Below, piece by piece: positions 6,436 to 20,260 of a stretch of 43,337 nt of DNA. A program made the position numbers and the translations under genes. Position 1 is the stretch's first letter. The number at the start of each line of letters is the position of its first letter. The notes under the pieces are model-generated. The model made no database searches. It worked only from the letters and a program-made list of their open reading frames with translations, and had not been told where the DNA came from. Origin of the DNA: Burkholderiales bacterium (GTDB taxonomy: Bacteria; Pseudomonadota; Gammaproteobacteria; Burkholderiales; Burkholderiaceae_E); contig JADCHE010000155.1 in assembly GCA_020248665.1 (NCBI GenBank), forward strand, positions 1 through 43,337, written 5' to 3'.

Positions 6436-6614
6436 GCGGGGCGGTGCACCCGCGCGACCGCGTCGTATCGCATCCATGGTGCCGTTGCGCCGCCCGCACG
6501 GGTCGGCGACGGGCGTCGCGCTGCGACGACGCCCCTGTTTTCGCGACCCCTTGGACGGGTAGCATCGGTCCCCCTTGCCCTCGCGGGCAGACCCGATACG
6601 GGACGCAGACGCCC

Positions 6615-7481
6615 ATGGACACGCCCCCCGACCGACCTGCCGGAGCCGACCGTCGCGCGGCCGTCGCGCACCCGCCCCTGCAGCGCACGCTGCGCGCGGC
6701 GCTCGAGCTCACCGCCCGCGACCTGCCGGAGTTCGACGCCGGGCTGCGCCGGATGCTGGTCGCGCGCTATCGGGCCGACGAGGGCGCCGCCGCCGCGACG
6801 CCGAGCTCGCGCGCCAAGTCGACCCTGCTCGCGCACGAGGCCGCGTTCCGCTCGATGCTGCCGCGGATGGTCGCGCTCGGCCTGAACACCGAGTTCCGGC
6901 GCCTCGACGGCGGCACGGCGCTCGACCCGCGTCCCGAGGACGGCGCGACGCCGCGCGCGGCGACGATCGCCGCGTTCGCGCGCGGCTTCGCCGCCGACCA
7001 TGCGGACGCCCTCGACGAGCTCGAGCGCCGCCTCGCCCACGCGCTCGGCCGCTCGATGCTCGCGCCCCGCGAGAACCCGATGCGCCCGGCGGTGTTCCTG
7101 CACGCGGTCGGCGCCTGCTGGCGGGCGGTGTCGGGCACCGATCGCGACGAGGTCGACGTGATACACGCCTACGGGACGCTGTGGGTGCCCTCGCTGCGCC
7201 GGACGATCTCGGCGCTGGTCGCCGGCCTGCCGCCGGCGCCCGGCCGCGGGGCATCGGTGCCTGCGATGCCCGCGTCGCCTGCGACGCGTACCGCCCCCGA
7301 CGCCGTCTCGGTCGTCGAGCGCTGGGCGGCCGCGATGGGCACGACGACCGACCTGCCTCGACCCGCGCCGGCCGATGCGGCGCGCGCACCCGCGCCGCCG
7401 AGGATGTCCCCGGAGACGGTCGAGCGCCTGCGTGCGGGCCACGGCGTGCCGACGCCCGACCCGCGCGCCTCGCCCGCCTGA
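6615..7481 (+). CDS. Uncharacterised 288-residue protein
   Basis: The ATG at 6615 begins MDTPPDRPAGADRRAAV; the longer frame upstream is low-complexity. The body (residues 20-195) is predicted helical and soluble, with recognisable blocks LQRTLRAALELTARDLPEF, RAKSTLLAHEAAFRSMLPRM and NPMRPAVFLHAVGACWRAV. The last 90 residues are Ala/Pro-rich and probably disordered. The stretch around AALEL...FRSML hints at a regulatory or scaffold protein, but I do not recognise a family and assign no function. The stop at 7479-7481 is one base from the stop of the convergent EamA gene. Confidence 0.65.
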   Translation: MDTPPDRPAGADRRAAVAHPPLQRTLRAALELTARDLPEFDAGLRRMLVARYRADEGAAAATPSSRAKSTLLAHEAAFRSMLPRMVALGLNTEFRRLDGGTALDPRPEDGATPRAATIAAFARGFAADHADALDELERRLAHALGRSMLAPRENPMRPAVFLHAVGACWRAVSGTDRDEVDVIHAYGTLWVPSLRRTISALVAGLPPAPGRGASVPAMPASPATRTAPDAVSVVERWAAAMGTTTDLPRPAPADAARAPAPPRMSPETVERLRAGHGVPTPDPRASPA

Positions 7482-7482
7482 G

Positions 7483-8403
7483 TCAGCCGGCCCGGCGCGC
7501 CCCCGGCCGCAGGTTCAGCCAGACGATCGCACCCACGACCAGCGCCGCGCCTGCCGCCTGCAGCGGCCCGATCGCCTGGCCGAGGATCGCCCACGCGAGC
7601 CCCATCGAGGCGATCGGCTCGAAGTTCATCGCCGGTGCCGAGTTGACCGCGCCGAGCCGCGGCAGCACCACGAAGAGCGACGTGAACGCGGTGCCGTAGA
7701 GCAGCGACAGCAGCACGAGCCCGGTCCATCCGGTGGCGTCGCGCGGCCACGCGAAGCCGTCGCCCGCGACGCCCCCGACGGTCGCGACCGCGGCCACGGT
7801 GACCATGAACCACAGCGTGCGCACGCGGCCGTCGACCTCTCCCAGCCAGCGCGTCGTGAGCAGCAGCGCGAGGCCGAAGCACAGCGACGCGGCAAGCCCG
7901 AAGCCCACGCCCGCCGCGAAGCGCGCCGGATCGTCGAGCGAGCGCCCGCCCGAGGCGAGCACGCCGGGCACGTCGAGCGCGAGCGCGAGGCCGACGAGGA
8001 TCACCGGCATCGCGATCGCGGTCCGGCGCGACGGCCGCTCGCCGCCGCTCGCCCACGACAGCAGCGCGAGCACGACCGGGAAGCTGTTGAAGACCAGCAG
8101 CGCGAGCGCGACCGGGATCCGCGCGACCGCCGCGTACAGGCACACGCTCTGCGCCGCGAGCACCACGCCGATCGCGATCGCTCGCCCGCGCGTCGCGCCG
8201 CGCAGCATCGACGGCGTGCGCGTCGCCACGAGCAGCAGCGCCACCGCCGCCGCGGTCGCCGCGGAGCGCACCGCGACCGCGGTGACGACGCCGGTCCCGT
8301 GGTCGAACGCGAGCCGCGCCGCGACGTGGTTCGACGCGAACACCGTCGCGATGAGCATCAGCAGCGCGACGCCGGCCCAGCGCGGGATCGCGGAGGCGCT
8401 CAC
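7483..8403 (-). CDS. EamA/RhaT family drug-metabolite transporter
   Basis: 306 residues from a GTG at 8403 (MSASAIPRWAGVALLML). About ten hydrophobic segments are visible in two tandem halves, the usual arrangement of the 10-TM EamA exporters in the inner membrane. Typical features are the ASNHVAARLAF segment in helix 1-2 and the VALALLVFNSFPVVLALLSW helix. Such proteins export amino acids, metabolites or purines; the substrate cannot be read from sequence. It lies 49 bases downstream of the SDR gene on the same strand, so the two may be co-transcribed. Confidence 0.88.
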   Translation of the reverse strand: MSASAIPRWAGVALLMLIATVFASNHVAARLAFDHGTGVVTAVAVRSAATAAAVALLLVATRTPSMLRGATRGRAIAIGVVLAAQSVCLYAAVARIPVALALLVFNSFPVVLALLSWASGGERPSRRTAIAMPVILVGLALALDVPGVLASGGRSLDDPARFAAGVGFGLAASLCFGLALLLTTRWLGEVDGRVRTLWFMVTVAAVATVGGVAGDGFAWPRDATGWTGLVLLSLLYGTAFTSLFVVLPRLGAVNSAPAMNFEPIASMGLAWAILGQAIGPLQAAGAALVVGAIVWLNLRPGARRAG

Positions 8404-8452
8404 GGCTCGCCCCGTGCGCGGGCGCGCCCGCCGCCGAGCGGGCGAGCGCCGC

Positions 8453-9232
8453 TCACGCGCGCCGCTTCAGGTCCTCGCCACCGATGTAGAACCGGTTCCA
8501 GGTCGGCGCGATGACGACCTCGGCGAGGCACACGTGCGGCGGCGCGGAGACGACGAAGCCGATCGCGTCGGCAACGTCCTCGGGCCGCAGCATCCGCGCG
8601 ATCTCCTCCTCCGACGGCGGCACCGGCCGCGACGTCAGGATCGGCGTCGCGACCTCGCCGGGGCAGAAGTGGCACGCTCGCACGCCATGCCGCCCCTCCT
8701 CGTCGTTGACGCTCTGCACCAGCGGGTCGAGCGCGGTCTTGCTCGCGCTGTAGGCGACGCCCGGGAAGTCCCTGTACGACCAGCCGGCCAGCGACGAGAC
8801 GACGCAGATCGAGCCGCCGCCCGCCGCGCGCATGCCGGGCAGCACCGCGTGGACCGCGTTCGCGACGCCGACCAGGTTGATCTGCACGACCTTCGCGAAG
8901 CCTTCGGGCGTGAGCCTCGGCCAGGTGCGGTTCGGCACGTTGGTGCCGGCCGCGCAGACCAGCACCGACACCGGACCGTGGCGGCCGGAGATCGTCGCGT
9001 GCGCGGCGGCGACCGAGGCCGCGTCCGCGACGTCGGCCGGGACCACCTCGATGCGCAGTCCCTGCGCGCGCAGCTCGGCTGCGGTCTTCTCGAGCTCCTC
9101 GGCGCGCCGCCCCGAGATCGCGACGGTCGCGCCCGCGCGGCCCAGCCACGCGGCGGTCGCACGTCCGATCCCGGTGCCGCCGCCGGTCACCCAGGCGAGC
9201 TTCCCGTCGAGTCCCTGCTGCATCGCGCCCAT
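8453..9232 (-). CDS. Short-chain dehydrogenase/reductase (SDR)
   Basis: 259 residues with a complete classical SDR core: the cofactor loop TGGGTGIG at residues 16-23, Arg42/Arg43 after the second strand (suggesting NADPH preference), Asn119, catalytic Ser147, Tyr161 and Lys165 (YSASK). The structural N-N-A-G motif is replaced by CAAG at 93-96. A second ATG at residue 4 (9223) is an alternative start. The substrate is unknown. The 63-base gap to the PNPOx-like gene holds the divergent promoters. Confidence 0.88.
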   Translation of the reverse strand: MGAMQQGLDGKLAWVTGGGTGIGRATAAWLGRAGATVAISGRRAEELEKTAAELRAQGLRIEVVPADVADAASVAAAHATISGRHGPVSVLVCAAGTNVPNRTWPRLTPEGFAKVVQINLVGVANAVHAVLPGMRAAGGGSICVVSSLAGWSYRDFPGVAYSASKTALDPLVQSVNDEEGRHGVRACHFCPGEVATPILTSRPVPPSEEEIARMLRPEDVADAIGFVVSAPPHVCLAEVVIAPTWNRFYIGGEDLKRRA

Positions 9233-9295
9233 CGTCGCCTCTCCTCGTCGCGTGGGTGCGCCGGCCCGCGGACGCGGCCGGCTACACTGCGCGCC

Positions 9296-9961
9296 GTGCC
9301 CGACACCGAACCGATCGACCTCCCCGGCGGCGACGCGACGCTCGAAGCGATTCTAGCGGCCGCGTGGCAACTGCTCGAACGCGGCGCGCGCCGCGCGTCG
9401 GAAGACTGGCACTGGCCGGTGCTCGCGAGCGTCGACGCGCGGGATCCGGAACGCGCGGCCGCCGACGCGCGCGTGGTCGTGCTGCGGCGCGCCGACCGCG
9501 GCGCGCGCGAGCTCGAGATCCACGGCGACGCGCGCTCGCACAAGCGCGCGCAGCTCGACGCCGCCCCGCGCGCCTGCCTTGTCTTCCACGACCGCGCGCG
9601 CGAGCTGCAGCTGCGCGCGTGGGGCCCGGCGCGCACGCACGTCGGCGACGCGGTCGCGCGCCGCGCGTGGGACACGCTCGCGCCCTCGTCGCGCCGCGCC
9701 TACCTCGCGCCGCGCGCGCCCGGCGAGCCGACCGGCGCGCCCGATGCGAACCTGCCCGAGGCATTCCGCGACCGGCTGCCCGACGCGGCGCAGTCGGAGC
9801 CGGGCTTCGCGAGCTTCGCCGCGATCGTGATGCGGCCGCACGCGATCGAGTGGCTGCGGCTGGGCCGCAGCGGCCACCAGCGTGCGCGATTCGAGTGGGG
9901 CGACGAAACGGCCGGGGCCGGGACCGGAGCCGCGCCCGCGTCGACCTGGATCCGGCCCTGA
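9296..9961 (+). CDS. Pyridoxamine 5'-phosphate oxidase-like flavoprotein
   Basis: 221 residues from a GTG at 9296 (VPDTEPIDLPGGD). A split-barrel FMN-binding fold is suggested by PVLASVDARDPERAAADARVV, then IHGDARSHKRAQLDAAPRAC, and a C-terminal IEWLRLGRSGHQRARF block; this resembles the Pyridox_oxase_2 (Alr4036-like) group, which often acts on substrates other than pyridoxine phosphate. A TACACT hexamer at 9283-9288 lies seven bases before the GTG with no ribosome site, so translation may be leaderless. It is divergent from the SDR gene. Confidence 0.78.
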   Translation: MPDTEPIDLPGGDATLEAILAAAWQLLERGARRASEDWHWPVLASVDARDPERAAADARVVVLRRADRGARELEIHGDARSHKRAQLDAAPRACLVFHDRARELQLRAWGPARTHVGDAVARRAWDTLAPSSRRAYLAPRAPGEPTGAPDANLPEAFRDRLPDAAQSEPGFASFAAIVMRPHAIEWLRLGRSGHQRARFEWGDETAGAGTGAAPASTWIRP

Positions 9962-10070
9962 GCCGCGCCGCGCCGCGCGGCGCGGACCCCGCCGACCCGA
10001 CCTGACGGTGCGCGCGCGGCGCGCCCGCGCTATCGTCGGGGTCCGACCCATTCCGACAGCGAGCGAGCGC

Positions 10071-10700
10071 ATGGCCTCCGCAACCCTGAAGCAGACCCTC
10101 GAGCAGGTCGACACCTGGATCCGTTCGGGCGCCGCCGCCCGCGACGTCGAGCGCCTCGCGCGCGAGACGATGGTCCGCGCCTCCGAGCGCATTCCGCCCG
10201 AGGCGCTGCGCCGGCTCATCGTGCTCCTCGAGCGGCTGCGCCCGATCGCCGAGCGTGCGGCCGCGGCCGCGCAGCAGGGGGCCGAGACCGTGCGGCGCGC
10301 GGCCGAGTCGCGCGCAGGCGCGACGTCGGGCGCGGCGCCGGCGCGGGGCGCCGCGGGGGCGAAGCGGCGCGCGACGAAGGCGCCGGCCGCGAAGGCCCCT
10401 GCACGTAAGGCCGCCGCGAAGAAGGCCGCCGCGAAGTCGGGCGCGAAGGCGGGCGCGGAGACGGGCGCGAAGAAGGCCGGTGCGAAGAAGGCCGGTGCGA
10501 AGAAGGCCGGAGCGAAGAAGACCGCCTCGAACGGCACCGGCGTCGCGAAGGCGCCGGCCGCGAAGAAGGCGGCCCCGCGCAAGGCCCCCGCGAAGAAGGC
10601 CCCCGCGAAGACGCCGTCCGCGAGCAAACCCGCCCTCGCACGCAAGGCGCCCGCCTCGGCGCCCGCTTCGCCGGTCGCGAACGCCCCGTCCGCCGACTGA
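10071..10700 (+). CDS. Histone H1/AlgP-like Lys-Ala-Pro-rich protein
   Basis: 209 residues. The first 65 residues (MASATLKQTLEQVDTWIRSG ...) form a helical domain. From about residue 95 the chain becomes an AKKA/PAKK-type tail, almost entirely Ala, Lys, Pro and Gly, like the DNA-binding tails of AlgP and eukaryotic H1. It is expected to bind DNA nonspecifically and affect nucleoid packing or expression. Three 15-base units encoding GAKKA lie in the tail (10467-10511). A TATCGT hexamer at 10031-10036 is a likely -10 element with a leader of about 30 bases. Confidence 0.75.
   Translation: MASATLKQTLEQVDTWIRSGAAARDVERLARETMVRASERIPPEALRRLIVLLERLRPIAERAAAAAQQGAETVRRAAESRAGATSGAAPARGAAGAKRRATKAPAAKAPARKAAAKKAAAKSGAKAGAETGAKKAGAKKAGAKKAGAKKTASNGTGVAKAPAAKKAAPRKAPAKKAPAKTPSASKPALARKAPASAPASPVANAPSAD
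10467..10511 (+). repeat. Three tandem 15-bp units in the H1-like tail
   Basis: The unit GCGAAGAAGGCCGGT occurs at 10467-10481 and 10482-10496, and a third copy with one changed base at 10497-10511, followed by a partial unit to 10520. Each adds AKKAG in frame, so copy number can vary without frameshift. Confidence 0.85.
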
Positions 10701-10713
10701 GCCGGCCGCGTCC

Positions 10714-10735
10714 CGCCCGCCCGCGCGGGCGGGCG
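10714..10735. terminator. GC palindrome between convergent genes
   Basis: An eleven-base arm (CGCCCGCCCGC) is immediately followed by its exact complement. It sits 14 bases after the H1-like stop and six bases before the thioesterase stop, so it could act on both strands. There is no T-run, so termination is inferred from position. Confidence 0.4.
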
Positions 10736-10740
10736 CGCCC

Positions 10741-11145
10741 TCAGACCAGCGCGTAGGTCGTCGTCGCGTGCGCCGCGAGCCTGCCGTCCGGCGCGAGCAG
10801 CTCGACCTCGCCGAACGTCAGCGTGCGGCCCGGCTTGAGCACGCGTGCAACGACGCGCAGCTCGGTGCCCTGCACCGGCCTCATGAAGCTCGTCGTCAGG
10901 CTCACCGTCGTCATCGGCCTGAACCCGCCGAGTTGCGACGACACCGCGAGCACCATCGCCGTGTCGGCCGCGGCCATCATCGCCTGGCCGCACACCGTGC
11001 CGCCGACCCGCGCGAGCCGCGCATCGAACGGCAGCCGCAGCGTCGTCTCGCCGCCGCCGATCGCGAGCACCTCGAGCCGCAGGTCCTGCACCCACGGCGC
11101 GAACAGCTCCCCGAGCATGCGCTGCGCCTCTTCGACCGTCACCAT
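10741..11145 (-). CDS. PaaI-family acyl-CoA thioesterase (hotdog fold)
   Basis: 134 residues from an ATG at 11145 with AGGGAG nine bases upstream; a GTG three codons earlier is less well placed. The hotdog pattern includes RVGGTVCGQAMMAAADTAMV near residue 47 (an Asp in the helix is the usual catalytic acid) and a second half MTTVSLTTSFMRPVQGTELR near residue 80. Members hydrolyse aryl- or acyl-CoA esters in the cytoplasm. It is divergent from the TRAP operon, 141 bases away, which may indicate a shared regulatory region. Confidence 0.82.
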   Translation of the reverse strand: MVTVEEAQRMLGELFAPWVQDLRLEVLAIGGGETTLRLPFDARLARVGGTVCGQAMMAAADTAMVLAVSSQLGGFRPMTTVSLTTSFMRPVQGTELRVVARVLKPGRTLTFGEVELLAPDGRLAAHATTTYALV

Positions 11146-11240
11146 CGCGACCACTCCCTGATCCGTGCCGGCAGACGATACACGCGGTCCCCGGGCGCGC
11201 GATAGCGCAGCGCAGCATCGCGTCGGCTGGCGCGTCGTCC

Positions 11241-11257
11241 GTAACGGGTGTTACAGT
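11241..11257 (+). promoter_or_regulatory. Dyad overlapping a -10 element of TRAP operon 1 (possible MarR operator)
   Basis: GTAAC-GGGT-GTTAC (11241-11254) is a perfect inverted repeat whose right arm runs into TACAGT (11252-11257), a credible -10 hexamer 29 bases before the dctQ-like ATG. A very similar element, read on the minus strand, precedes the cupin gene at 15673 (see 15694-15717). The marR-like gene of this operon is the obvious candidate regulator. Confidence 0.5.
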
Positions 11258-11286
11258 TCCGGCCCGCTCCGCATCATCGCCCGTCG

Positions 11287-11916
11287 ATGTCGTCACGTCC
11301 CGAGCCCGGTCCCGCGTTGCCGCCCGAAGCAGCTCCGCCGCCCCGCCGCGAGCCCGTCCTGGTCGAGGAGGCGATCGCGGTCGCCTGCATGGTGGTGCTG
11401 GTGCTGCTGACGCTGGCCAACGTGCTGGTGCGCTACTTCACCGACGAGAGCTTCGCGGCCACCGAGGAGGTCTCGATCGCGCTGATGGTCATCATGACCG
11501 TCGCCGGCGCCTGCTCGGCCGCGGCCCGGGACCGCCACATCCGCATCGAGTTCTTCTACGAGACCGGCAGCGCCGGCCGGCGCCGCAGGCTCGCGCTGCT
11601 GTCGGCGACGATCACCTGCGTGTTCTTCCTCGTGCTCGGGGCGCTGTCGGCGCGCGTCGTCTGGGACGAGTGGCGCTACGAGGAGACGACGATGGCGCTG
11701 GGCCTGCCGCGGTGGTGGTACACCGTGTGGGTGCCGGTGATGTGCGTCGTGCTCGCGATGCGCGCGGCGGCCGTCGCGGGCAAGGTGCGCCGCGGGCTGA
11801 TGCTGCCCGGGGGCGACGGCGGCGGCGACGACGCCGGCTCGCCGCTCACCGGCCATGCGCACGCGGCCGACGTCGACCGCGCGGCGGTTCGCGCGCCGAA
11901 GGACGCGACGCGATGA
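11287..11916 (+). CDS. TRAP transporter 1, small permease subunit (DctQ-like)
   Basis: 209 residues. After a Pro-rich N-terminal 30 residues there are four hydrophobic helices (roughly 35-60, 70-90, 108-130, 150-170), the usual DctQ topology. Conserved-type features are LANVLVRYFTDESFAATEEV after helix 1 and RHIRIEFF in the loop after helix 2. Together with DctM it forms the inner-membrane module that uses an ion gradient to import carboxylates delivered by the binding protein. The stop overlaps the next ATG (ATGA at 11913), showing translational coupling. Confidence 0.9.
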   Translation: MSSRPEPGPALPPEAAPPPRREPVLVEEAIAVACMVVLVLLTLANVLVRYFTDESFAATEEVSIALMVIMTVAGACSAAARDRHIRIEFFYETGSAGRRRRLALLSATITCVFFLVLGALSARVVWDEWRYEETTMALGLPRWWYTVWVPVMCVVLAMRAAAVAGKVRRGLMLPGGDGGGDDAGSPLTGHAHAADVDRAAVRAPKDATR

Positions 11917-13211
11917 TCGCGGCGCTGCTCTTCGCCGCGTTCTTCCTGCTGATGTTCCTCGGCGTGCCGATCGGCGTCGCGCTCGGCGTCGGCGGCATGA
12001 TCGCGATCGCGCTCGAGAACCCGGACACGATGCTGTGGGGCACGCTCGCCGCGCCGCAGAATTTCCACGCCGGCCTCGCGAAGTACCCGCTGCTCGCGTT
12101 GCCGATGTTCGTGCTGGTCGGCTCGATCTTCGACCGCTCCGGCGTCGCCCGGCGGATGGTGCAGTTCGCGATCGCCTGCGTCGGCCGCGGCCCCGGCATG
12201 CTGCCGCTGGTCGCGATCCTGGTCGCGATGGTGCTGGGCGGCATCTCGGGCTCCGGCCCGGCGAACGCCGCCGCGGTCGGCGGCGTGATGATCGCGGCGA
12301 TGGCCCGCGCGGGCTACCCCGCGCCCTTCTCCGCGTCGGTGGTCGGCGCGGCCGCCGCGACCGACGTGCTGATTCCGCCCTCGATCGCGTTCATCGTCTA
12401 CAGCGTCGTGGTGCCTGGCGCGTCGGTGCCCGCGCTGTTCGCAGCCGGCATGGTGCCCGGCATCCTCGCGGGCCTCGCGCTGATCATCCCGGCAGTGTGG
12501 CTGTCGAGGAAGCACGGCTTCGGCGTGGCCGAGCGCGAACTGCCGCGTCCGCCGTTCTGGAAGTCGCTGCGCGAGGCCTCGTGGGGCCTCGCCGCGCCGG
12601 TGCTGATCCTCGGCGGCATGCGCGCCGGCTGGTTCACGCCGACCGAGGCCGCGGTGGTCGCGGTGGTCTATGGCCTGTTCGTGGGCATGTTCGTCCATCG
12701 GACGATGGGCCCGCGCGAGCTGTGGGACACCTTCCGCGAGGCGACCGAGATCTCGGCGGTCATCATGCTGGTGCTCGGGCTGGCCGCGATCTTCGCCTAC
12801 GCGGTCGCGACCCTCGGCCTCGCCGACCCGCTCGTCGACGGCATCCGCGCGCTCGGCTGGAGCGGCGCGCTGACGCTGACGCTGGTCGCGGTGCTGCTGC
12901 TGGTCGTCGGCATGTTCCTCGACGGCGTGTCGATCTTCCTGATCTTCCTGCCGCTGCTGCTGCCGCTGATGAAGCTGTACCAGTGGGACCCGGTCTGGTT
13001 CGGCGTGCTGCTGACGATGATGGTGGCGATCGGCCAGTTCACGCCGCCGATGGCGGTCAACCTGCTGGTGTCGTGCCGCATCGCCGGCGTGCGCATCGAG
13101 CAGACCGTGCCCTGGGTCGGCTGGCTGGTGTTCTCGTTCCTGACGGCCGCCGTCCTGGTGGCGGTGTTCCCCGAGCTCGCGCTTTGGCTGCCGCGCGCGC
13201 TCGGCTACTGA
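11913..13211 (+). CDS. TRAP transporter 1, large permease subunit (DctM-like)
   Basis: 432 residues, the typical DctM length, with about twelve hydrophobic segments. Family signatures are MFLGVPIGVALGVGG in the first hairpin, GGISGSGPANAAAVGGVMI near residue 110, TDVLIPPSIAFIVY near residue 150, and GVLLTMMVAIGQFTPPMAVNL near residue 365. These form the ion and substrate path in the inner membrane. The gene is read through the ATGA overlap with dctQ and is followed 37 bases later by the binding-protein gene with its own strong ribosome site. Confidence 0.92.
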   Translation: MIAALLFAAFFLLMFLGVPIGVALGVGGMIAIALENPDTMLWGTLAAPQNFHAGLAKYPLLALPMFVLVGSIFDRSGVARRMVQFAIACVGRGPGMLPLVAILVAMVLGGISGSGPANAAAVGGVMIAAMARAGYPAPFSASVVGAAAATDVLIPPSIAFIVYSVVVPGASVPALFAAGMVPGILAGLALIIPAVWLSRKHGFGVAERELPRPPFWKSLREASWGLAAPVLILGGMRAGWFTPTEAAVVAVVYGLFVGMFVHRTMGPRELWDTFREATEISAVIMLVLGLAAIFAYAVATLGLADPLVDGIRALGWSGALTLTLVAVLLLVVGMFLDGVSIFLIFLPLLLPLMKLYQWDPVWFGVLLTMMVAIGQFTPPMAVNLLVSCRIAGVRIEQTVPWVGWLVFSFLTAAVLVAVFPELALWLPRALGY

Positions 13212-13248
13212 AGTTCCCGTACGTTCCCCAGAAAGAGGAGACCCCGAG

Positions 13249-14277
13249 ATGAAACGACGCGACATCCTGAAGACCGGCGCCGCCAGCGGCGCGGCCCTCG
13301 GCTTCCCGACGATCCTGAAGGCGCAGCAGGCCTACCGGCCCGAGTACAAGATGTCGACGGTCGTCGGCACCGCGCTCGCCTGGGGCCGCTGCGGCGAGCG
13401 GTTCGGCAAGCTGGTGTCCGAGCGCACCGGCGGCCGGATCAACATCAAGCAGTACCCGGGCTCCAGCCTCGTGCAGGGCCAGCAGGACCGCGAGTTCGCG
13501 GCGATGCGCCAGGGCATCATCGACGTGCTCTGCGGCGCCCCGATCAACTGGTCGGGCACGGTGCGCGAGTGCGGCGCGTTCGCGCTGCCGTTCCTGATGC
13601 CCGACCACAAGGCCTACGACGCGCTGATCCAGTCGGACGCGGTGCAGAAGGACTTCTTCGACATCATCCGCAAGGCCGGTGCCGAGCCGCTCGCGGTGGG
13701 CGAGACCGGCTACCGCCAGCTGTCGAACAGCAAGCGCGCGGTGAGGAAGCCCGATGACCTCAAGGGCCTGAAGATCCGCGTCGTCGCGAGCCCGATGTAC
13801 CAGGAGATCATGTCGGGCATGCAGGCGAACCCCACCGCGATGAGCTGGGCCGACGCGCAGCCGGCACTCGCCTCGGGGGCGGTCGACGGGCAGGAGAACC
13901 CGATGGAGCTGTTCCTCGGGCTCAAGGTCCACACGCTGGGCCAGAAGTTCGTGACCAAGTGGAACTACTCGAACGACATCCTGCTGATCGCGATCGCCAA
14001 CCCGATCTGGAACTCGTGGTCGCCGCAGGACCAGAAGATCGTCCGCGAGGCCGCGATCGAGGCCGCGAAGGAGAACATCAGGGAGGTCCGCGAGGTCTAC
14101 GCCAAGGACGTCGAGGCCGTCCGCGCGCTCGGCGTCGACGTCACGGTGCCGACGGCGGCCGAGATGGAGACCTGGCAGATCGCGTGCCGTCGGCCGTACG
14201 CGCGCTGGAAGGCGCAGATCAACCCCGGCCTGATCTCGAAGTTCGAGGAGGTCGTCGCCCGGACCCGCAAGGCCTGA
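13249..14277 (+). CDS. TRAP transporter 1, periplasmic substrate-binding protein (DctP-like)
   Basis: 342 residues. AGAGGAGA upstream is a strong ribosome site. The N-terminus MKRRDILKTGAASGAALGFP has twin arginines, a hydrophobic stretch and LKAQQ before the mature start, so Tat export is likely. The mature part shows the DctP pattern: VVGTALAWGRCGERFGKLVS, GRINIKQYPGSSLVQGQQD, LKGLKIRVVASPMYQ (the Arg normally clamps the substrate carboxylate) and GAVDGQENPMELF near residue 212. The ligand is probably a carboxylate or aromatic acid. The gene order Q-M-P is normal for one TRAP subgroup. Confidence 0.92.
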   Translation: MKRRDILKTGAASGAALGFPTILKAQQAYRPEYKMSTVVGTALAWGRCGERFGKLVSERTGGRINIKQYPGSSLVQGQQDREFAAMRQGIIDVLCGAPINWSGTVRECGAFALPFLMPDHKAYDALIQSDAVQKDFFDIIRKAGAEPLAVGETGYRQLSNSKRAVRKPDDLKGLKIRVVASPMYQEIMSGMQANPTAMSWADAQPALASGAVDGQENPMELFLGLKVHTLGQKFVTKWNYSNDILLIAIANPIWNSWSPQDQKIVREAAIEAAKENIREVREVYAKDVEAVRALGVDVTVPTAAEMETWQIACRRPYARWKAQINPGLISKFEEVVARTRKA

Positions 14278-14278
14278 G

Positions 14279-14776
14279 ATGGCCCCGGCGCGCCCCGCTC
14301 CGGCCGGCCGCGACGACGGGCCGCCGCACGATCGCACGCTGCTCTTCGCGATGGTGCGGCTGGTCAACCTGACCGCCCGGCCCTTCCAGGAGGGCATCGG
14401 GCGGCGGCATCGTCTCGGGCTGTCGGAGTGGCGCGTGCTCGCGGTGCTGCACGAGCATCCGGGGTCGGCTGCGATCGAGATCGCGCAGCGCACCGGGCTC
14501 GACAAGATGAGCGTCTCGCGCGCGCTCGCGTCGCTCGAGGCCGCGGGCCGCGTCGCGCGCCGGCCCGACCCCGACGACGGCCGCCGCGCGCTCGCGACGC
14601 TGACACCGGCGGGGCGCCAGCTCTACCGCAGCCTGCGCGGCCCCGCCCGCGAGCGCGAGGCGGCGGTCACCGGCGCGCTGACCGCGGCCGAGCGCAGGCA
14701 GCTGACGGCGCTCGTCGAGCGGATGACCGCGTCGGTGCTCTCGGCCGACGGCGCGCCGCCCGACGCGCCGCGCTGA
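14279..14776 (+). CDS. MarR family transcriptional regulator
   Basis: 165 residues. It starts one base after the TRAP binding-protein stop (TGAGATG), so it is the last gene of that operon. The winged helix is clear: LGLSEWRVLAVLHEHPGSAA, the recognition-helix region GLDKMSVSRALASLEAAG, and the wing RRPDPDDGRRALATLTPAG (about residues 45-112), flanked by dimerisation helices. MarR proteins usually repress and are released by an aromatic or carboxylate ligand; operon location suggests the ligand is the TRAP substrate or a derivative. The dyads at 11241 and 15694 are candidate operators. Confidence 0.9.
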   Translation: MAPARPAPAGRDDGPPHDRTLLFAMVRLVNLTARPFQEGIGRRHRLGLSEWRVLAVLHEHPGSAAIEIAQRTGLDKMSVSRALASLEAAGRVARRPDPDDGRRALATLTPAGRQLYRSLRGPAREREAAVTGALTAAERRQLTALVERMTASVLSADGAPPDAPR

Positions 14777-14777
14777 C

Positions 14778-14815
14778 GGATCGGCCGCGGGCGCGAGCCG
14801 GCCGCGGCCCGATCG
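14778..14815. terminator. Bidirectional hairpin between marR and cupin genes
   Basis: Arms GATCGGCCGCGG and CCGCGGCCCGATC pair with one bulged base around a loop of about ten bases. It fills the 54-base gap between two convergent genes and could terminate both. No clear T-run follows on either strand. Confidence 0.45.
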
Positions 14816-14830
14816 TGCAGCGACGCCCGC

Positions 14831-15673
14831 TCAGCGATACCCGAACAGGTCCGCCCGCGGCGGCGCCGCCCCGTCGGCGCTCCCCGGCGGATCGATCCAG
14901 TGCGCCGGACCCTCGGCCCATGCGAGCACCAGCGCACCGAACGGGCAGGCGAGGCTCACCTCGGCGGTCGGCTCGAGGATGACGAAGCAGCCCGCGTGCG
15001 CGACCCGCCCGTCGACCTCGAGCAGCCCGCCGCGGATCCAGAGCTCGGTGTGGCCGGTCACGACCAGCCGCGGAATGCGGCTCTGCGGCCGGATCGACAA
15101 CTGCACCATCCGGTGATCGTCGGCGGTCGGCGCGTAGTCGAACACCGTGCGGCGCACGACCCCGTCGCAGCCGGTGCCCTGCTCGGGGAGCAGGTCGACC
15201 GACACGTTGATGTCGGGCGGCACCGACGGCGCCGGGTTGGAGAGCAGCGCGTGGCGGGCGCCGGCGTGCAGGCCGTGCAGCGGCCCGTCCTGCGGCGGGT
15301 AGGTCACCGGCCCTTCCAGCCGCGCGACGAACAGCGTGCGCGCGTAGGCGATCGCGTCGTGCGTCGCGCCCTTCAGGTTGATGCCGGCCTGCCCGGCGAG
15401 GATCGCGCCCTGGTAGTCGGTCAGGCCGCCGTCGACGAAGTAGCTGGTCGCGACGCCCTGGTGCTGGTGCAGCCCCGAGCGGACCATCGGCTCCATCGCG
15501 ATCAGCCCGAGGAACTGGCCGCGCTCGTCGTCGCGCCGCACGACCTTCTGCAGGACACCGGCCTTGCCGGCCTCGCGCCAGTCGAGCTCGGCGGGGTCGT
15601 ACACGTAGGCGCCGCCGCGGCCGCCGCGGCGGTAGGGCTCGGCAGGACGTGCGGCGGTGGCGAGGGTGTCCAT
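14831..15673 (-). CDS. Double-cupin protein (ChrR/dihydroxyacetophenone dioxygenase-like)
   Basis: 280 residues from an ATG at 15673 with AAGGAGA seven bases upstream. Two cupin-like halves are visible: the first with GLHQHQGVATSYFVDGG (about residues 67-83; histidines as likely metal ligands), the second with SRIPRLVVTGHTELWIRGGL (about residues 198-217; one His only) and a VAHAGCFVILEP strand. This resembles ChrR-type cupins and 2,4'-dihydroxyacetophenone dioxygenases. It could be a metal-dependent dioxygenase or an isomerase; the reaction is not fixed by sequence. Its promoter carries a dyad like that of TRAP operon 1, suggesting it acts on the imported compound. Confidence 0.75.
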   Translation of the reverse strand: MDTLATAARPAEPYRRGGRGGAYVYDPAELDWREAGKAGVLQKVVRRDDERGQFLGLIAMEPMVRSGLHQHQGVATSYFVDGGLTDYQGAILAGQAGINLKGATHDAIAYARTLFVARLEGPVTYPPQDGPLHGLHAGARHALLSNPAPSVPPDINVSVDLLPEQGTGCDGVVRRTVFDYAPTADDHRMVQLSIRPQSRIPRLVVTGHTELWIRGGLLEVDGRVAHAGCFVILEPTAEVSLACPFGALVLAWAEGPAHWIDPPGSADGAAPPRADLFGYR

Positions 15674-15693
15674 GCGGGGCGTCTCCTTCGCCC

Positions 15694-15717
15694 GGATCGT
15701 AACACTCGTGACGATCC
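15694..15717 (-). promoter_or_regulatory. 24-bp dyad over the cupin promoter (possible MarR operator)
   Basis: Arms GGATCGTAAC (15694-15703) and GTGACGATCC (15708-15717) are complementary at nine of ten positions around ACTC. Read on the minus strand the core is GTCAC-GAGT-GTTAC, which differs at two of 14 positions from the GTAAC-GGGT-GTTAC element at 11241, and TACGAT inside it is a likely -10 hexamer for the cupin gene. Confidence 0.5.
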
Positions 15718-15833
15718 GCCGTCGACCGGTCGGGCCGCCGCCGCGGGCGCCGGCGGCCGATGCTGCGGCGCAGCTACCGCGGCCTGCTCGGTCGGCCTAC
15801 ACTGGACCGGTCGCTGCCCGCTCCCGTCCTCCG

Positions 15834-16664
15834 ATGACCCCGTCGACGCCCGCCTCCGGCGAACCGACCGAGACGACCGGCGCCGCCCGCACCGACGCGC
15901 CGCGCGCGCCGTTCCCGGTCGTGCGCGAGATCGGGTTCGGCGCGCCGCTGCGCTGGCTCGCGCTCGGCGCGCGCGACTTCCGCGAGCGGCCGGTGCCGTG
16001 CCTCTTCTACGGCACGTGCTTCGCCGCGATGGGCTGGCTGCTGGCCGCGCTGCTGCGCCCCGCGCCCGGCACGATGATGGCGCTGACCGCGGGCTTCCTG
16101 CTGGTCGGGCCGTTCATGGCGATGGGCCTGTACGAGGTGGCGCGCCGGCGCGAGGCCGGGCTGCCCTGCGACCTGTTGGCCTCGACGCTGGTGTGGCGGC
16201 GCAACCTGACCAACGTCGCGATCCTCGGCATCGGCCTCGAGATCGTGATGGCGCTGTGGGCGCGCTCGTCGATGATGGTGATCGCGATCTTCTTCCCGCG
16301 CTCGATGCCGAGCGTCGCGGTGCTGCTCGACGAGATCGCGCGCGGGCAGGAGATCGGGTTCCTCGCGACCTGGCTGGGTGTCGGCGCGCTGTTCGCGACG
16401 CTGGTGTTCGCCTTCACCGCGATCGCGATCCCGCTGATGCTCGACCGAGGCACCGACGCGATCACCGCGATGCTCGCGAGCGTCGTGGCCTTCGGGCGCA
16501 ACGTCGTGCCGCTGCTCTTCTGGGCCGCGCTGATCGTCGCGCTGACGGTGCTGGGCTTCGCGACCTTCTTCGTGGGGCTGATCGTCACCGTGCCGTGGGT
16601 CGGGCTCGCCACCTGGCACGCGTACCGCGCGCTGGTCGAGCCGGTCGCGACGACGGTGGCCTGA
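15834..16664 (+). CDS. DUF2189 membrane protein
   Basis: 276 residues. After about 25 variable residues comes VREIGFGAPLRWLALGARDF, the hallmark opening of DUF2189 proteins. Six or so hydrophobic segments follow, including LTAGFLLVGPFMAMGLYEVARRREAG near residue 85, ending with VPWVGLATWHAYRALV, the typical C-terminal motif. These are inner-membrane proteins of unknown role, often near cytochrome oxidase genes, but none is present here. A TACACT hexamer at 15798-15803 is a likely -10 element with a leader of about 25 bases. Confidence 0.85.
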   Translation: MTPSTPASGEPTETTGAARTDAPRAPFPVVREIGFGAPLRWLALGARDFRERPVPCLFYGTCFAAMGWLLAALLRPAPGTMMALTAGFLLVGPFMAMGLYEVARRREAGLPCDLLASTLVWRRNLTNVAILGIGLEIVMALWARSSMMVIAIFFPRSMPSVAVLLDEIARGQEIGFLATWLGVGALFATLVFAFTAIAIPLMLDRGTDAITAMLASVVAFGRNVVPLLFWAALIVALTVLGFATFFVGLIVTVPWVGLATWHAYRALVEPVATTVA

Positions 16665-16682
16665 GCCGCCGCAGGCGAAGCG

Positions 16683-17180
16683 TCAGTCGGCGAGGCGGCG
16701 GCCGCCCTCGCGCCGGGCGCGGTCGAGGTCGGCGTCGGCCGCGCGCACCAGCGCATCGAGCCCGCAGGGCCGCGAGCCGCGCGCGGCGGCGCCGATCGTG
16801 CAGCTGAGCGACCACAGGTTGCCGGCGATCGACAGCCGCAGCGCCTGCACGTCCTCGTGCAGCCGCGCCGAGAGCACCGGCACCGCGTCGCCGGACGCGC
16901 CGGTCAGCACCACCAGGAACTCGTCGTCGCGCAGCAGCGCGAGCCGGTCGTCGGGACGCAGGCGGCGCTGCAGGCACGCGACGACCGCGAGGGTCACCTG
17001 CTCGGCGGCGGCCGCGCCGTGGCGCTCGCGGATCCCGGCGAACTGGTCGACGTCGACGATCAGCACCGCGTCGCCGCAGGGCGCACGGCGCACCCGGTGC
17101 GCCCGGTGCGTGCCCGCATCGAGCGGTGCGCCCCTGACCCCGGTCATCCACAGCCTCTGCAGCACGTCGCGGTCTCCCAC
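16683..17180 (-). CDS. GGDEF-like domain protein with degenerate signature
   Basis: 165 residues from a GTG at 17180; AGGATCGACGG precedes it, and a TAGACT hexamer (17208-17203, minus strand) is placed as a -10. A longer start at 17240 would read through that promoter. The fold is visible from VLQRLWMTGVRGAPLD (in place of D-x-L-T-G-L-x-N-R) through AVLIVDVDQFAGIRERHGAAAAEQV, which is a well-preserved helix-strand of diguanylate cyclases. At the active site the expected G-G-D/E-E-F is RDDEF, losing both glycines, so cyclase activity is unlikely; it may bind c-di-GMP or GTP or only interact with partners. No sensor domain is attached. Confidence 0.72.
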   Translation of the reverse strand: MGDRDVLQRLWMTGVRGAPLDAGTHRAHRVRRAPCGDAVLIVDVDQFAGIRERHGAAAAEQVTLAVVACLQRRLRPDDRLALLRDDEFLVVLTGASGDAVPVLSARLHEDVQALRLSIAGNLWSLSCTIGAAARGSRPCGLDALVRAADADLDRARREGGRRLAD

Positions 17181-17294
17181 CCGTCGATCCTGCGGGCAGT
17201 CTAGGCGTGCGCCCGGCAGGCGGTGCAGGACATCCGTCACGGCCGACGCAGGCGGCCGGGCCGCGCGCGTGACGGCGGTCGCGCCGCGCCGCGC

Positions 17295-18266
17295 TCAGCC
17301 GCGGCGCAGCAGCGCGCGCGCCGCGTCGGCGACGCGGGCCGCGTCGACGCGCGCCTGCGCCTCGAGCCCAGGCGAGTAGCCGACCGGCGCGCGCGGCGCG
17401 CCGAGGCGCGCGAGCCGTGCGACGCCCGCCTCCGCGAGCGTCGCGACGATCTCGGCGCCGAAGCCGGCGACCTGCACCGCCTCGTGCACGACCAGCACGC
17501 GGCGCGTGCGCTCGGCCGACGCGAATACCGCGTCGCGGTCCCACGGCCACAGCGTGCGCAGGTCGATCACCTCGGCCTGCACGCCCTCGCCGGCGAGCGT
17601 CTCGGCCGCGGCCAGCGACCCGTGCACCGCCTTGCTCCACGAGACGATCGTCAGGTCGCCGCCGGCGCGCACCGTCTGCGCGCGGCCGAGCGGCGCCGGC
17701 TGCGTCGGATGCACCTCGCCCTCGGTGCCCCAGAGCTCCTTGTGCTCGAAGTAGGCGACCGGGTCGCCGCAGTCGATCGCCGCACGCAGCAGGCCGAAGT
17801 TGTCCTGCGGCGTCGACGGCGCGACCACGACCAGCCCCGGCACGTGCGCGAACCACGCCTCGAGCGACTGCGAGTGCTGCGCGGCCGACGCGCTCCAGAT
17901 GCCGACCGGCATCCGGATCACCGTCGGCACGCGGCCCTGGCCGCCGAACATGAAGCGGTTCTTCGCGGCCTGGTTGACGATCTCGTCCATCGCGCACAGC
18001 GCGAAGTCGATCACGCGCATCTCTACGACCGGCTTCAGTCCGGTGAGCGCCATGCCGACGGCGGCACCCACGATCGTCGACTCCGAGATCGGCGTGTCGA
18101 TCACCCGCTCGCCGCCGAACTCGGCCTGCAGCCCGGCGTACTGGCCGAAGATCCCGCCGCGCCCGACGTCCTCGCCGAGCGCGACCACGCGCGCATCGTC
18201 GCGCATCGCCTGCGCGAGCGCGGCGGCGCCGGCCTGCGCGTAGGTCATCCGCTTCACCGTGCTCAT
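17295..18266 (-). CDS. 2-oxoacid dehydrogenase E1 component, beta subunit
   Basis: 323 residues from an ATG at 18266 with GGGAGGTGGGC upstream. Family blocks are ALGEDVGRGGIFG near residue 30, DTPISESTIVGAAVGMALTG near residue 58 (the Glu activates thiamine diphosphate), QAAKNRFMFGGQ, AQHSQSLEAWFAHVPGL near residue 130, and VIDLRTLWPWD near residue 235. With the alpha subunit it forms the alpha2beta2 decarboxylase of pyruvate, acetoin or branched-chain type complexes. Its ATG overlaps the alpha stop codon (ATGA), so the two are coupled. No E2 or E3 gene lies in the window. Confidence 0.9.
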   Translation of the reverse strand: MSTVKRMTYAQAGAAALAQAMRDDARVVALGEDVGRGGIFGQYAGLQAEFGGERVIDTPISESTIVGAAVGMALTGLKPVVEMRVIDFALCAMDEIVNQAAKNRFMFGGQGRVPTVIRMPVGIWSASAAQHSQSLEAWFAHVPGLVVVAPSTPQDNFGLLRAAIDCGDPVAYFEHKELWGTEGEVHPTQPAPLGRAQTVRAGGDLTIVSWSKAVHGSLAAAETLAGEGVQAEVIDLRTLWPWDRDAVFASAERTRRVLVVHEAVQVAGFGAEIVATLAEAGVARLARLGAPRAPVGYSPGLEAQARVDAARVADAARALLRRG

Positions 18267-19273
18267 GCCCACCTCCCGGCGCCGACGTCCTGCACGTCCG
18301 TGTACGCCGCGCCCGGATCGGGCCACGGCGCCGCGGCGGCGGTCTCGATCGAGCGCGCGATCTCGGCGCGCGCCTCGGCGAGCACCGCGTCGATGGCGGC
18401 CTGCGCGACACCGCGCGCGGCGAGGCGCGCCTGCGCGAGCGGCAGCGGGTCGCCCTGCATCGCCGCCGCGAGCTCGGCCGGATCGCGGTAGGCGGCCGGG
18501 TCGACCGACACGTGCCCCTTGAAGCGGTAGGTCTTCGCGTGCAGCAGCCGCGGCCCGCCGCCCGCACGCACCTGCGCGACGAGCCGGCCCGCGACCGCGT
18601 GGACCGCCTCGACGTCCATGCCGTCGACCGCCTCCGAGGGGACGCCGGCCGCGGCCGCGCGCGCCGCCGCGCCGTCGCCGGCCGACATCGCCGCGGTCTT
18701 GGTCGTCGCCGACCACTGGTTGTCCTCGCAGACGAACAGCATCGGCAGCCGGAACGCCGCGGCCCAGTTCAGGCTCTCGGCGAACGGCCCGCGGTTGATC
18801 GCGCCGTCGCCGAAGAAGCTGACCGCGATCGCGTCGACGCCGCGCAGCTTCAGCGACTGCGCGGCGCCCACCGCGATCGGGATGCCGGCGGCGACGACGC
18901 CGTTGGCGCCGAGCATGCCGACCGAGAAGTCGGCGATGTGCATCGAGCCGCCCTTGCCGCCGCAGTAGCCGCCCGCACGGCCGAAGAGCTCGAGCATCAT
19001 CCGCGTCGGGTCCGCGCCCTTGGCGAGCGTGTGGCCGTGGCCGCGGTGCGTCGAGGTCAGGCAGTCCTCGCGCCGAAGGTGCGCGCACACGCCGGCCGCG
19101 ACCGCCTCCTGGCCGGTGGACAGGTGCAGCGGCCCGCGCACGTTCGCGTTGCCGGCCGCCTGGCCGAACGCGGCGACGCCGCCGCGGCTCGCTTCCTCCG
19201 CGGCGTCCTCGAACGCGCGGATCCGGCACATCGTCCGGTACAGGGACATCAGGGGTTCGTTCGGGGCGCTCAT
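18263..19273 (-). CDS. 2-oxoacid dehydrogenase E1 component, alpha subunit
   Basis: 336 residues from an ATG at 19273. The thiamine diphosphate motif GDGAINRGPFAESLNWAAAF ... CEDNQWS is complete (GDG to the conserved Asn). Other family blocks are GQEAVAAGVCAHLRREDCLTSTHRGHGH and GGKGGSMHIADFSVGMLGANG, which shape the active site. It decarboxylates a 2-oxoacid and passes the acyl group to a lipoylated E2. The best functional guess is a pyruvate/acetoin-type enzyme; specificity is uncertain. A TACAAT hexamer on the minus strand (19304-19299) is a good -10, in the 96-base region shared with the divergent LD-carboxypeptidase gene. Confidence 0.9.
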   Translation of the reverse strand: MSAPNEPLMSLYRTMCRIRAFEDAAEEASRGGVAAFGQAAGNANVRGPLHLSTGQEAVAAGVCAHLRREDCLTSTHRGHGHTLAKGADPTRMMLELFGRAGGYCGGKGGSMHIADFSVGMLGANGVVAAGIPIAVGAAQSLKLRGVDAIAVSFFGDGAINRGPFAESLNWAAAFRLPMLFVCEDNQWSATTKTAAMSAGDGAAARAAAAGVPSEAVDGMDVEAVHAVAGRLVAQVRAGGGPRLLHAKTYRFKGHVSVDPAAYRDPAELAAAMQGDPLPLAQARLAARGVAQAAIDAVLAEARAEIARSIETAAAAPWPDPGAAYTDVQDVGAGRWA

Positions 19274-19369
19274 CGCTGCGGCCGGGTCCAGGGTCGGGGA
19301 ATTGTACGGGACCGCTTCCGCGCGACCGGCGGCGCCTCGTTCCGGGGATCGGCGTGGCAGACTGCCGCC

Positions 19370-20260
19370 ATGGCCTTCGACCTCTACGCGATCTCGCCCT
19401 CGGGCGCCGTCCAGGACCGCACGCGCATGGAGCGCGCCGCGGCGCGCCTCGCCGACGCGGGCATCGGCGTGCGCTTCGACCGCACCGCGTTCTCGCGCGC
19501 GCAGCGCTTCGCCGGCACCGACGCGCAGCGCGCCGCCGCGTTCGGGCGCGCGGCGGCGCAGCGCGCGCCGGTGGTGATGATCACGCGGGGCGGCTACGGC
19601 CTCACCCGCTATCTCGATGCGCTCGACTACGAGGCGCTCGCCGCCTCCGGCAAGAAGTGGGTCGGCGTCTCCGACTTCACCGCCTTCCAGCTCGCGATGC
19701 TCGCCCGCGCCGGCGCGGTCACCTGGGCGGGCCCGGCGCTCACCGACTTCGGCGCCGAGGACGGCGTCGACGGGACCACGCTCGACGCCTTCGGCGAGGC
19801 GATGCGCGGCGAGCTCGAGGTCCTCGGCTTCGGGTACTCCGGCCCGAAGGACGTCGAGGCGCGCGGCACGCTGTGGGGCGGCAACCTGAGCGTGCTGTGC
19901 GCGCTGCTCGGCACGCCCTGGTTCCCGCAGGTGCGGCGCGGCATCCTCTTCGTCGAGGACGTCAACGAGCACCCGTACCGCATCGAGCGGATGCTCACCC
20001 AGCTGCTGCACGCGGGCGTGATCGACGCGCAGTCCGCGGTGCTCGTCGGCCAGGTGAGCCGCTACCGCCTCGCCGAGCACGACCGCGGCTTCGACATGCC
20101 CGCGGTGCTGCGCTTCCTGCGCGGGCGCACCCGCACCCCGATCCTCGCCGGCCTGCCCTACGGCCACGAGATGCCGTGCATGACGCTGCCGCACGGGGCG
20201 AAGGTGTCCCTAGCCACCGAGGGCCGGACCTGCTGGCTGCGCCTGCCGCACGCGCACTGA
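19370..20260 (+). CDS. ldcA: LD-carboxypeptidase (peptidase family S66)
   Basis: 296 residues, typical for LdcA, which removes the terminal D-Ala from the L-Lys/mDAP-D-Ala bond of murein tetrapeptides during cell-wall recycling in the cytoplasm. The S66 triad is present: Ser101 in VGVSDFTAF, Glu196 in FVEDVNEHPYRIERM, and His266 in GLPYGHEM. RGGYG at 73-77 and WGGNLSVL near residue 169 are also family hallmarks. A CAGACT hexamer at 19358-19363 lies six bases before the ATG. The lrgAB genes follow closely on the same strand (10 bases), which makes a wall-turnover operon plausible. Confidence 0.9.
   Translation: MAFDLYAISPSGAVQDRTRMERAAARLADAGIGVRFDRTAFSRAQRFAGTDAQRAAAFGRAAAQRAPVVMITRGGYGLTRYLDALDYEALAASGKKWVGVSDFTAFQLAMLARAGAVTWAGPALTDFGAEDGVDGTTLDAFGEAMRGELEVLGFGYSGPKDVEARGTLWGGNLSVLCALLGTPWFPQVRRGILFVEDVNEHPYRIERMLTQLLHAGVIDAQSAVLVGQVSRYRLAEHDRGFDMPAVLRFLRGRTRTPILAGLPYGHEMPCMTLPHGAKVSLATEGRTCWLRLPHAH

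Follow-up and report, generated by a model that had tools for sequence, protein, structure and literature searches.

Two inverted repeats (dyads) of nearly the same sequence stand before two convergent transcription units in a 43,337-nucleotide stretch of a Burkholderiales bacterium, one before the dctQ-dctM-dctP-marR operon of a tripartite ATP-independent periplasmic (TRAP) importer and the other before a cupin gene. The stretch, hereafter the window, covers contig JADCHE010000155.1 from end to end (C63 of genome G000, a 5.07-Mb assembly in 218 contigs). We estimate at roughly 0.8 the probability that a dimer of the MarR protein encoded at the end of the operon (14279-14776) binds these GTAAC-N4-GTTAC-type dyads over both -10 boxes, and represses the TRAP operon and the cupin gene until a ligand releases it. 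That the two units form one MarR regulon had been proposed from the raw sequence, and the proposal is now supported by conserved dyads and by co-variation of the predicted operator with the recognition helix, set against one failed prediction.

Both elements lie where the original prediction had placed them, on opposite strands and running into the hexamers TACAGT and TACGAT, respectively (Table 1), and the two dyads do share 12 of their 14 core bases. From the end of the dyad to the A of the start codon there are 33 positions for dctQ (ATG at 11287) and 26 for the cupin gene (ATG at 15673). The pattern GTMAC-N4-GTKAC occurs in the window at dyads 1 and 2 only, and GTMACNNNNGTKAC is found twice against 0.03 expected, a count of two that was reached in none of 100 shuffles; the pair hence exceeds what composition would give. 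Across the 5.07-Mb assembly GTMACNNNNGTTAC occurs at six places, dyads 1 and 2 included. The remaining four are beside a marR paralogue on contig C158, before a fimV-like gene on C67, and on C154 and C172, in both cases within a reading frame; these last two, which fall by eye in parB-like and methionine-synthase-like frames, were judged to be chance sites.

Concerning the promoters, the claim that both dyads overlap the -10 holds in so far as their right arms run into -10-like hexamers; the boxes themselves are weak (4/6 each, by eye), and a sigma-70 scan with a threshold of 9 of 12 finds no promoter in 10600-20000. The -35 boxes are also poor by eye, as is common in activated promoters, which would fit a MarR protein that binds both dyads but activates transcription, or hardly affects it. 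We consider this improbable: the dyad extends over the -10 and a large part of the spacer, and a protein bound over these positions blocks the polymerase. Repressors are described in PMC5487221 as typically interfering.

The evidence that ties the dyads to a particular type of MarR protein comes from a comparison of recognition helices (residues 73-87 here, a putative assignment from the MarR fold) with the DNA around the corresponding genes. Twenty distinct MarR genes carry LDKM, MDKM, LPKM or MEKM in this helix, referred to below as the KM helix. A GTAAC-N4-GTTAC dyad with at least 9 of the 10 arm bases is found in 19/20 of the KM loci and in 0/79 of the other MarR rows, at 2.9 kb from marR in G475 and within 1.5 kb in the other 18 KM loci. 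The first 30 loci alone, which were not selected for dyads, give a dyad of at least 9/10 in 16/16 KM loci versus 0/14 others. Altogether 104 loci were examined, with one MarR each, and five duplicates were dropped (L139, L140, L141, L142 and L144, the same as L043, L061, L067, L059 and L069), leaving 99 rows, i.e. 20 KM and 79 others, among which one gene is represented twice (L065 and L151). The 79 comprise 14 of the first 30 loci, L120, L123 (where the row counted is another MarR than the cupin neighbour) and 63 matches of the A3 search (L146-L208), which come from 22 of the 30 loci given plus 40 additionally fetched and, being the better matches, do not represent random sampling. The KM rows from the A3 search were mostly chosen from dyad-bearing loci, only L143 and L145 being independent (one of the two with a dyad).

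When the 99 rows are placed on a maximum-likelihood tree, those labelled as dyad-bearing are found in two groups, one adjacent to genes for a TRAP importer or for the E1 component of a thiamine-type 2-oxoacid dehydrogenase (E1a and E1b, the alpha and beta subunits), and one adjacent to VOC-type dioxygenase genes. In the second group the dyad separates marR from the VOC gene at 11/11 VOC loci (10 places, L058 and L116 being the same). Nested in the TRAP/E1 group (forks 95/88 and 100/95) are five MarR genes, L049, L050, L052, L053 and L054, in which H[VL]M replaces DKM. Their loci are devoid of GTAAC-N4-GTTAC and present, upstream of marR in 5/5 cases, TAAC-N4-GTTA bordered by T, C or A in place of the outer G. 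This core is found in 13/19 KM loci, 5/5 H[VL]M loci and 0/72 other loci, for which shuffles give 0.15 (L122 was left out of this count, and L005 was used for the C158 locus); the H[VL]M operator emerged from an alignment of the five loci and was counted afterwards, so that the 5/5 is a description and the 0/72 is the control. Six KM loci have no TAAC-N4-GTTA: L145 and the five same-genus ones, where the DNA retrieved includes, of the two dyads, just that of the cupin gene, one arm of which reads GTGAC.

A further comparison is offered by cupin genes next to other MarR genes. The cupin-adjacent MarR of G304 (L120) has an unrelated helix, LLTPVQTGRSLLKLR, and the gap between marR and cupin (L120 9442-9465) holds a different perfect palindrome of 24 bases, ATTTATTATCATATGATAATAAAT. 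On a Paraburkholderia plasmid (L123) the cupin-adjacent MarR shares the helix of the G304 protein, and the gap holds ATATTATATCAAATGATAGTAT, which resembles ATTTATTATCATATGATAATAAAT and runs into GTATCGTCCGTGAC, one mismatch from GTMACNNNNGTKAC. A change of helix is thus accompanied by a change of predicted operator, the cupin gene remaining next to a marR gene, and the co-variation as a whole supports assigning the dyads to the KM-type MarR protein. More tentatively, there may be a code in which an outer G (GTAAC) accompanies D-K-M, and an outer base other than G (TTAAC, CTAAC or ATAAC) accompanies H-[VL]-M, the core TAAC-N4-GTTA being unchanged; the module under the predicted control of this MarR group, made of TRAP importer, E1 and a new three-His cupin, would constitute an undescribed acetolactate-like keto-acid route.

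The original prediction had also called for a search for the dyads at orthologous promoters. Among 11 genomes of the same genus, besides the window's own, marR and the cupin gene both have close relatives in four (G006, G008, G010 and G011), and both the dctQ dyad GTAACGGGTGTTAC and the cupin dyad GTCACGAGTGTTAC are identical in 5/5 carriers, that is, the window's genome and these four; in G008 the two lie on separate contigs. Upstream of the cupin gene the alignment is rich in insertions and its columns are on average 62% identical; even so, the 20-base block TCGTCACGAGTGTTACGATC, which encloses dyad 2, is identical in all five. Upstream of dctQ, where mean column identity is 82%, the 18 bases GTAACGGGTGTTACAGTT are identical in 5/5, as is a second stretch farther upstream, GCGCAGCGCAGCAT. 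Each of the five carriers has one to three perfect GTAACNNNNGTTAC sites, and the non-carriers (G001-G005, G007 and G009) show no close marR or cupin relative and no perfect GTAACNNNNGTTAC; a reversed control pattern is found two to eight times per non-carrier genome and in none of the five carriers. The cupin is rare beyond near kin: relatives with an expectation value (E) below 1e-70 are present in 8/150 nearest genomes, and at E 1e-20 in 2/399 genomes across the order and 2/398 across the phylum, the own genome included each time.

In other genera the dyad arms recur with differing spacers and flanks. G067 presents an E1a-E1b-dctQ-dctM-dctP-marR operon led by GTCACAGGCGTTAC, followed by a gene of E2 acyltransferase type (scores below the model cut-offs) led by GTAACTATTGTTAC; no cupin relative was found in this genome. 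G021 has GTAACGTTTGTTAC both before an E1a-E1b-TRAP-marR-type operon and before a convergent cupin gene, and in G019, on a contig of just 3.3 kb, the cupin gene is preceded by GTAACGTACGTTAC. In the far relative G475 the cupin gene is divergent from a dctP...dctM-marR cluster, with GTAACATATGATAC, matching 9/10 arm bases, in between. G025 (L114) has dctP and the cupin gene without marR, and no dyad of at least 8/10 in 6500-10500. A regulon guess made from raw sequence has in this way survived the computable half of its refutation test, with cores identical in 5/5 same-genus carriers and dyads at equivalent places in other genera. These data also bear on whether the dyads are merely core-promoter sequence or chance palindromes, conserved through the closeness of the genomes. 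Such an origin would account for their overlap with the -10 and for the conservation in the genus of the fimV- and rpoD-side dyads described below, but the arms recur with other spacers and flanks, dyads are absent from the 79 other MarR rows, and the outer base varies jointly with the helix, which leaves it very improbable.

Several observations weigh against a regulon defined by KM helix and dyad. The E1a-E1b-marR locus of G413, with KM helix GLDKMAVSRALAGLK, had been predicted in advance to carry a dyad before E1a; there is none of at least 8/10, so that this prediction failed. The asymmetric form seen at the cupin gene, GTCACNNNNGTTAC, is commoner in the genus than perfect GTAACNNNNGTTAC, with three to six places per carrier and four places in 3/7 non-carriers, these other GTCAC-N4-GTTAC places having mostly been checked for overlapping reading frames only, and some not. 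Two further dyads have no evident MarR role: GGTAACGNNCGTTACC, just after an rpoD-like frame (by eye) in 3/5 carriers, and GTCACTGATGTTAC, with like flanks, before a fimV-like gene (by eye) in 4/5, a count for which only the G000 and G006 rows of the alignment are in register, G010 and G011 being judged by their flanks. At L011 and L013, outside the 99-row set, a 9/10 dyad lies near a MarR gene whose product has a helix unrelated to KM. Many of the 19 dyad-bearing KM loci are close kin, the five same-genus loci being one lineage, and as few as 4 changes on the tree account for the distribution of the dyad label, so that independent changes are few. Finally, the window's own genome encodes on C158 a second KM MarR (L121, a locus fetched because it is dyad-bearing) that is able in principle to bind the same sequence.

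Regarding the first of the two further dyads, the GGTAACGNNCGTTACC sites lie around position 1501 of L129, L130 and L138 (G011:C114, G006:C25 and G010:C523), and their downstream genes differ. The GTCACTGATGTTAC sites are at L003 1501-1514 (G000:C67:4454-4467) and on G006:C3, G010:C527 and G011:C261; the fimV-side dyad may be either promoter sequence or a further site.

The C158 protein has the helix TLDKMQVSRAVGRME and a perfect GTAACTTCGGTTAC between its gene and the VOC gene, with the half-sites of dyad 1, so it could itself occupy the dyads of the window, alone or as well, and the two clusters would then be one wider regulon. We regard this as unlikely. Perfect dyads number two in G006, one in G008, two in G010 and one in G067, counted genome-wide, with one each at the TRAP-marR locus; the second of G006 and of G010 is the post-rpoD site and none is at a VOC gene (G008 being only 75% complete). 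Moreover, dyad 1 lacks the TATA flanks seen at the C158 site. As for the locus itself (L121 7706-10497), the marR gene is divergent from genes for a VOC-type dioxygenase and a flavin monooxygenase (by eye), with the perfect dyad in between, and the marR-VOC arrangement recurs in other families.

Returning to control by the operon's own MarR, the predicted mechanism is as follows. A MarR dimer on the dyad over the -10 would keep RNA polymerase off both promoters; the imported compound, or its product, would release the dimer, so that the TRAP and cupin promoters would both fire. The marR gene, standing at the end of the TRAP operon, would be co-transcribed with the importer, so that the protein would limit its own synthesis.

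The importer most probably takes up a small keto- or hydroxy-acid, which would be processed by the cupin and, in related genera, by the thiamine-type E1. A small keto-acid is our first guess, held with modest confidence, and it fits better than a ring because the operons of other genera add the thiamine-type dehydrogenase E1. The cupin had been described as ring- or acid-processing: the acid is favoured by the E1- and E2-type neighbours in other genera, and the ring is not. The closest solved chain to DctP is 4p8b_A (E 1.3e-106, residues 1-338 aligned, about half of them identical by eye). 4p8b is a TRAP protein of Ralstonia eutropha H16, presumably crystallized with an acetolactate-type ligand. 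A review (PMC5812351) includes 2-acetolactate among TRAP ligands.

That MarR proteins act on palindromes close to the genes they control is well established, and HpaR, HcaR, CouR and PcaV are MarR-family regulators of catabolic genes located next to their targets. The protein of the window resembles these four in its MarR winged-helix domain and, as predicted here, in a palindrome at the promoter and a regulator gene near the targets. It differs from HpaR in scoring far under the HpaR equivalog cut-off (50.5 bits versus 121.2, the best NCBIfam model; every NCBIfam equivalog model listed scores below its cut-off), and in that its gene is the last of a transporter operon. The best chain for the MarR profile A2 is 2fa5 ('transcriptional regulator marR/emrR family', E 1.6e-38), whose helix region TAMDKVAVSRAVARL is alike, with a V where the dyad-linked clades have M. 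Among the papers listed in keyword searches, none was seen to report a GTAAC-N4-GTTAC-type operator for the KM-helix MarR group; the present analysis proposes one and links it to a few helix residues.

Concerning the cupin, Dke1 and 2,4'-dihydroxyacetophenone dioxygenase are three-histidine cupin dioxygenases and, like them, the protein of the window keeps HxH and a further His (H69, H71 and H105, invariant in 8/8 aligned proteins), a likeness seen here at the level of sequence. The gene had been called a double cupin; a Cupin_7 (ChrR cupin-like) domain is present (PF12973, 46.8 bits versus a cut-off of 27), but the Pfam match is confined to residues 24-117 of 280. The profile of this 280-residue protein matches no solved chain at E below 0.1. 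Linking this unstudied cupin with a TRAP importer and with an E1 enzyme reduces the range in which its substrate has to be sought.

Table 1. Predicted regulatory elements and genes of the TRAP-cupin locus (window positions; 5/5 refers to the window's genome and four same-genus carriers).
Feature	Position	Strand	Remarks
Dyad 1 GTAACGGGTGTTAC, GTAAC-GGGT-GTTAC	11241-11254	+	predicted MarR operator of the dctQMP-marR operon; identical 5/5
-10-like TACAGT	11252-11257	+	overlapped by right arm of dyad 1; identical 5/5
Dyad 2 GTCACGAGTGTTAC, GTCAC-GAGT-GTTAC	15712-15699	-	predicted MarR operator of the cupin gene
-10-like TACGAT	15701-15696	-	overlapped by dyad 2; identical 5/5
-35-like TCGACG	15720-15725	-	18 bases before TACGAT here, 17 in relatives; TCGAC identical 5/5
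dctQ, TRAP small permease	11287-11916	+	PF04290 above cut-off
dctM, TRAP large permease	11913-13211	+	PF06808 and TIGR00786 above cut-off
dctP, TRAP solute-binding protein	13249-14277	+	PF03480 above cut-off
marR, last operon gene	14279-14776	+	predicted regulator of both dyads; PF12802, PF01047
Putative recognition-helix codons GLDKMSVSRALASLE, residues 73-87	14495-14539	+	MarR alignments
Cupin gene (Cupin_7)	14831-15673	-	convergent with marR; PF12973 above cut-off
E1-beta, thiamine-type 2-oxoacid dehydrogenase	17295-18266	-	apart from the TRAP operon here
E1-alpha, same enzyme	18263-19273	-	no dyad of at least 8/10 within 19100-19700

The operon (11287-14776, + strand) faces the convergent cupin gene (14831-15673, - strand). 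It encodes a TRAP transporter, the DctQ, DctM and DctP Pfam models all scoring above their cut-offs within the one operon; a model for the twin-arginine translocation (TAT) signal scores just under its cut-off in DctP. The marR gene, as had been noted, comes last, starting one base past the dctP stop, and its product belongs to the winged-helix MarR family (PF12802, 55.8 bits versus a cut-off of 27; PF01047, 48.3 versus 24.6).

A third regulon member was sought in the window, and no dyad of at least 8/10 was found before E1a, either here or in L104, L105 and L106. The E1a-E1b pair may be outside the regulon in this organism, because it stands apart from the TRAP operon and has no dyad in the window's genus. 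The models for pyruvate dehydrogenase E1 alpha and beta score below their cut-offs (TIGR03182, 288.5 bits versus 393.85; NF006667, 285.3 versus 321), and the two subunits are kin to the E1 of the pyruvate and branched-chain dehydrogenases.

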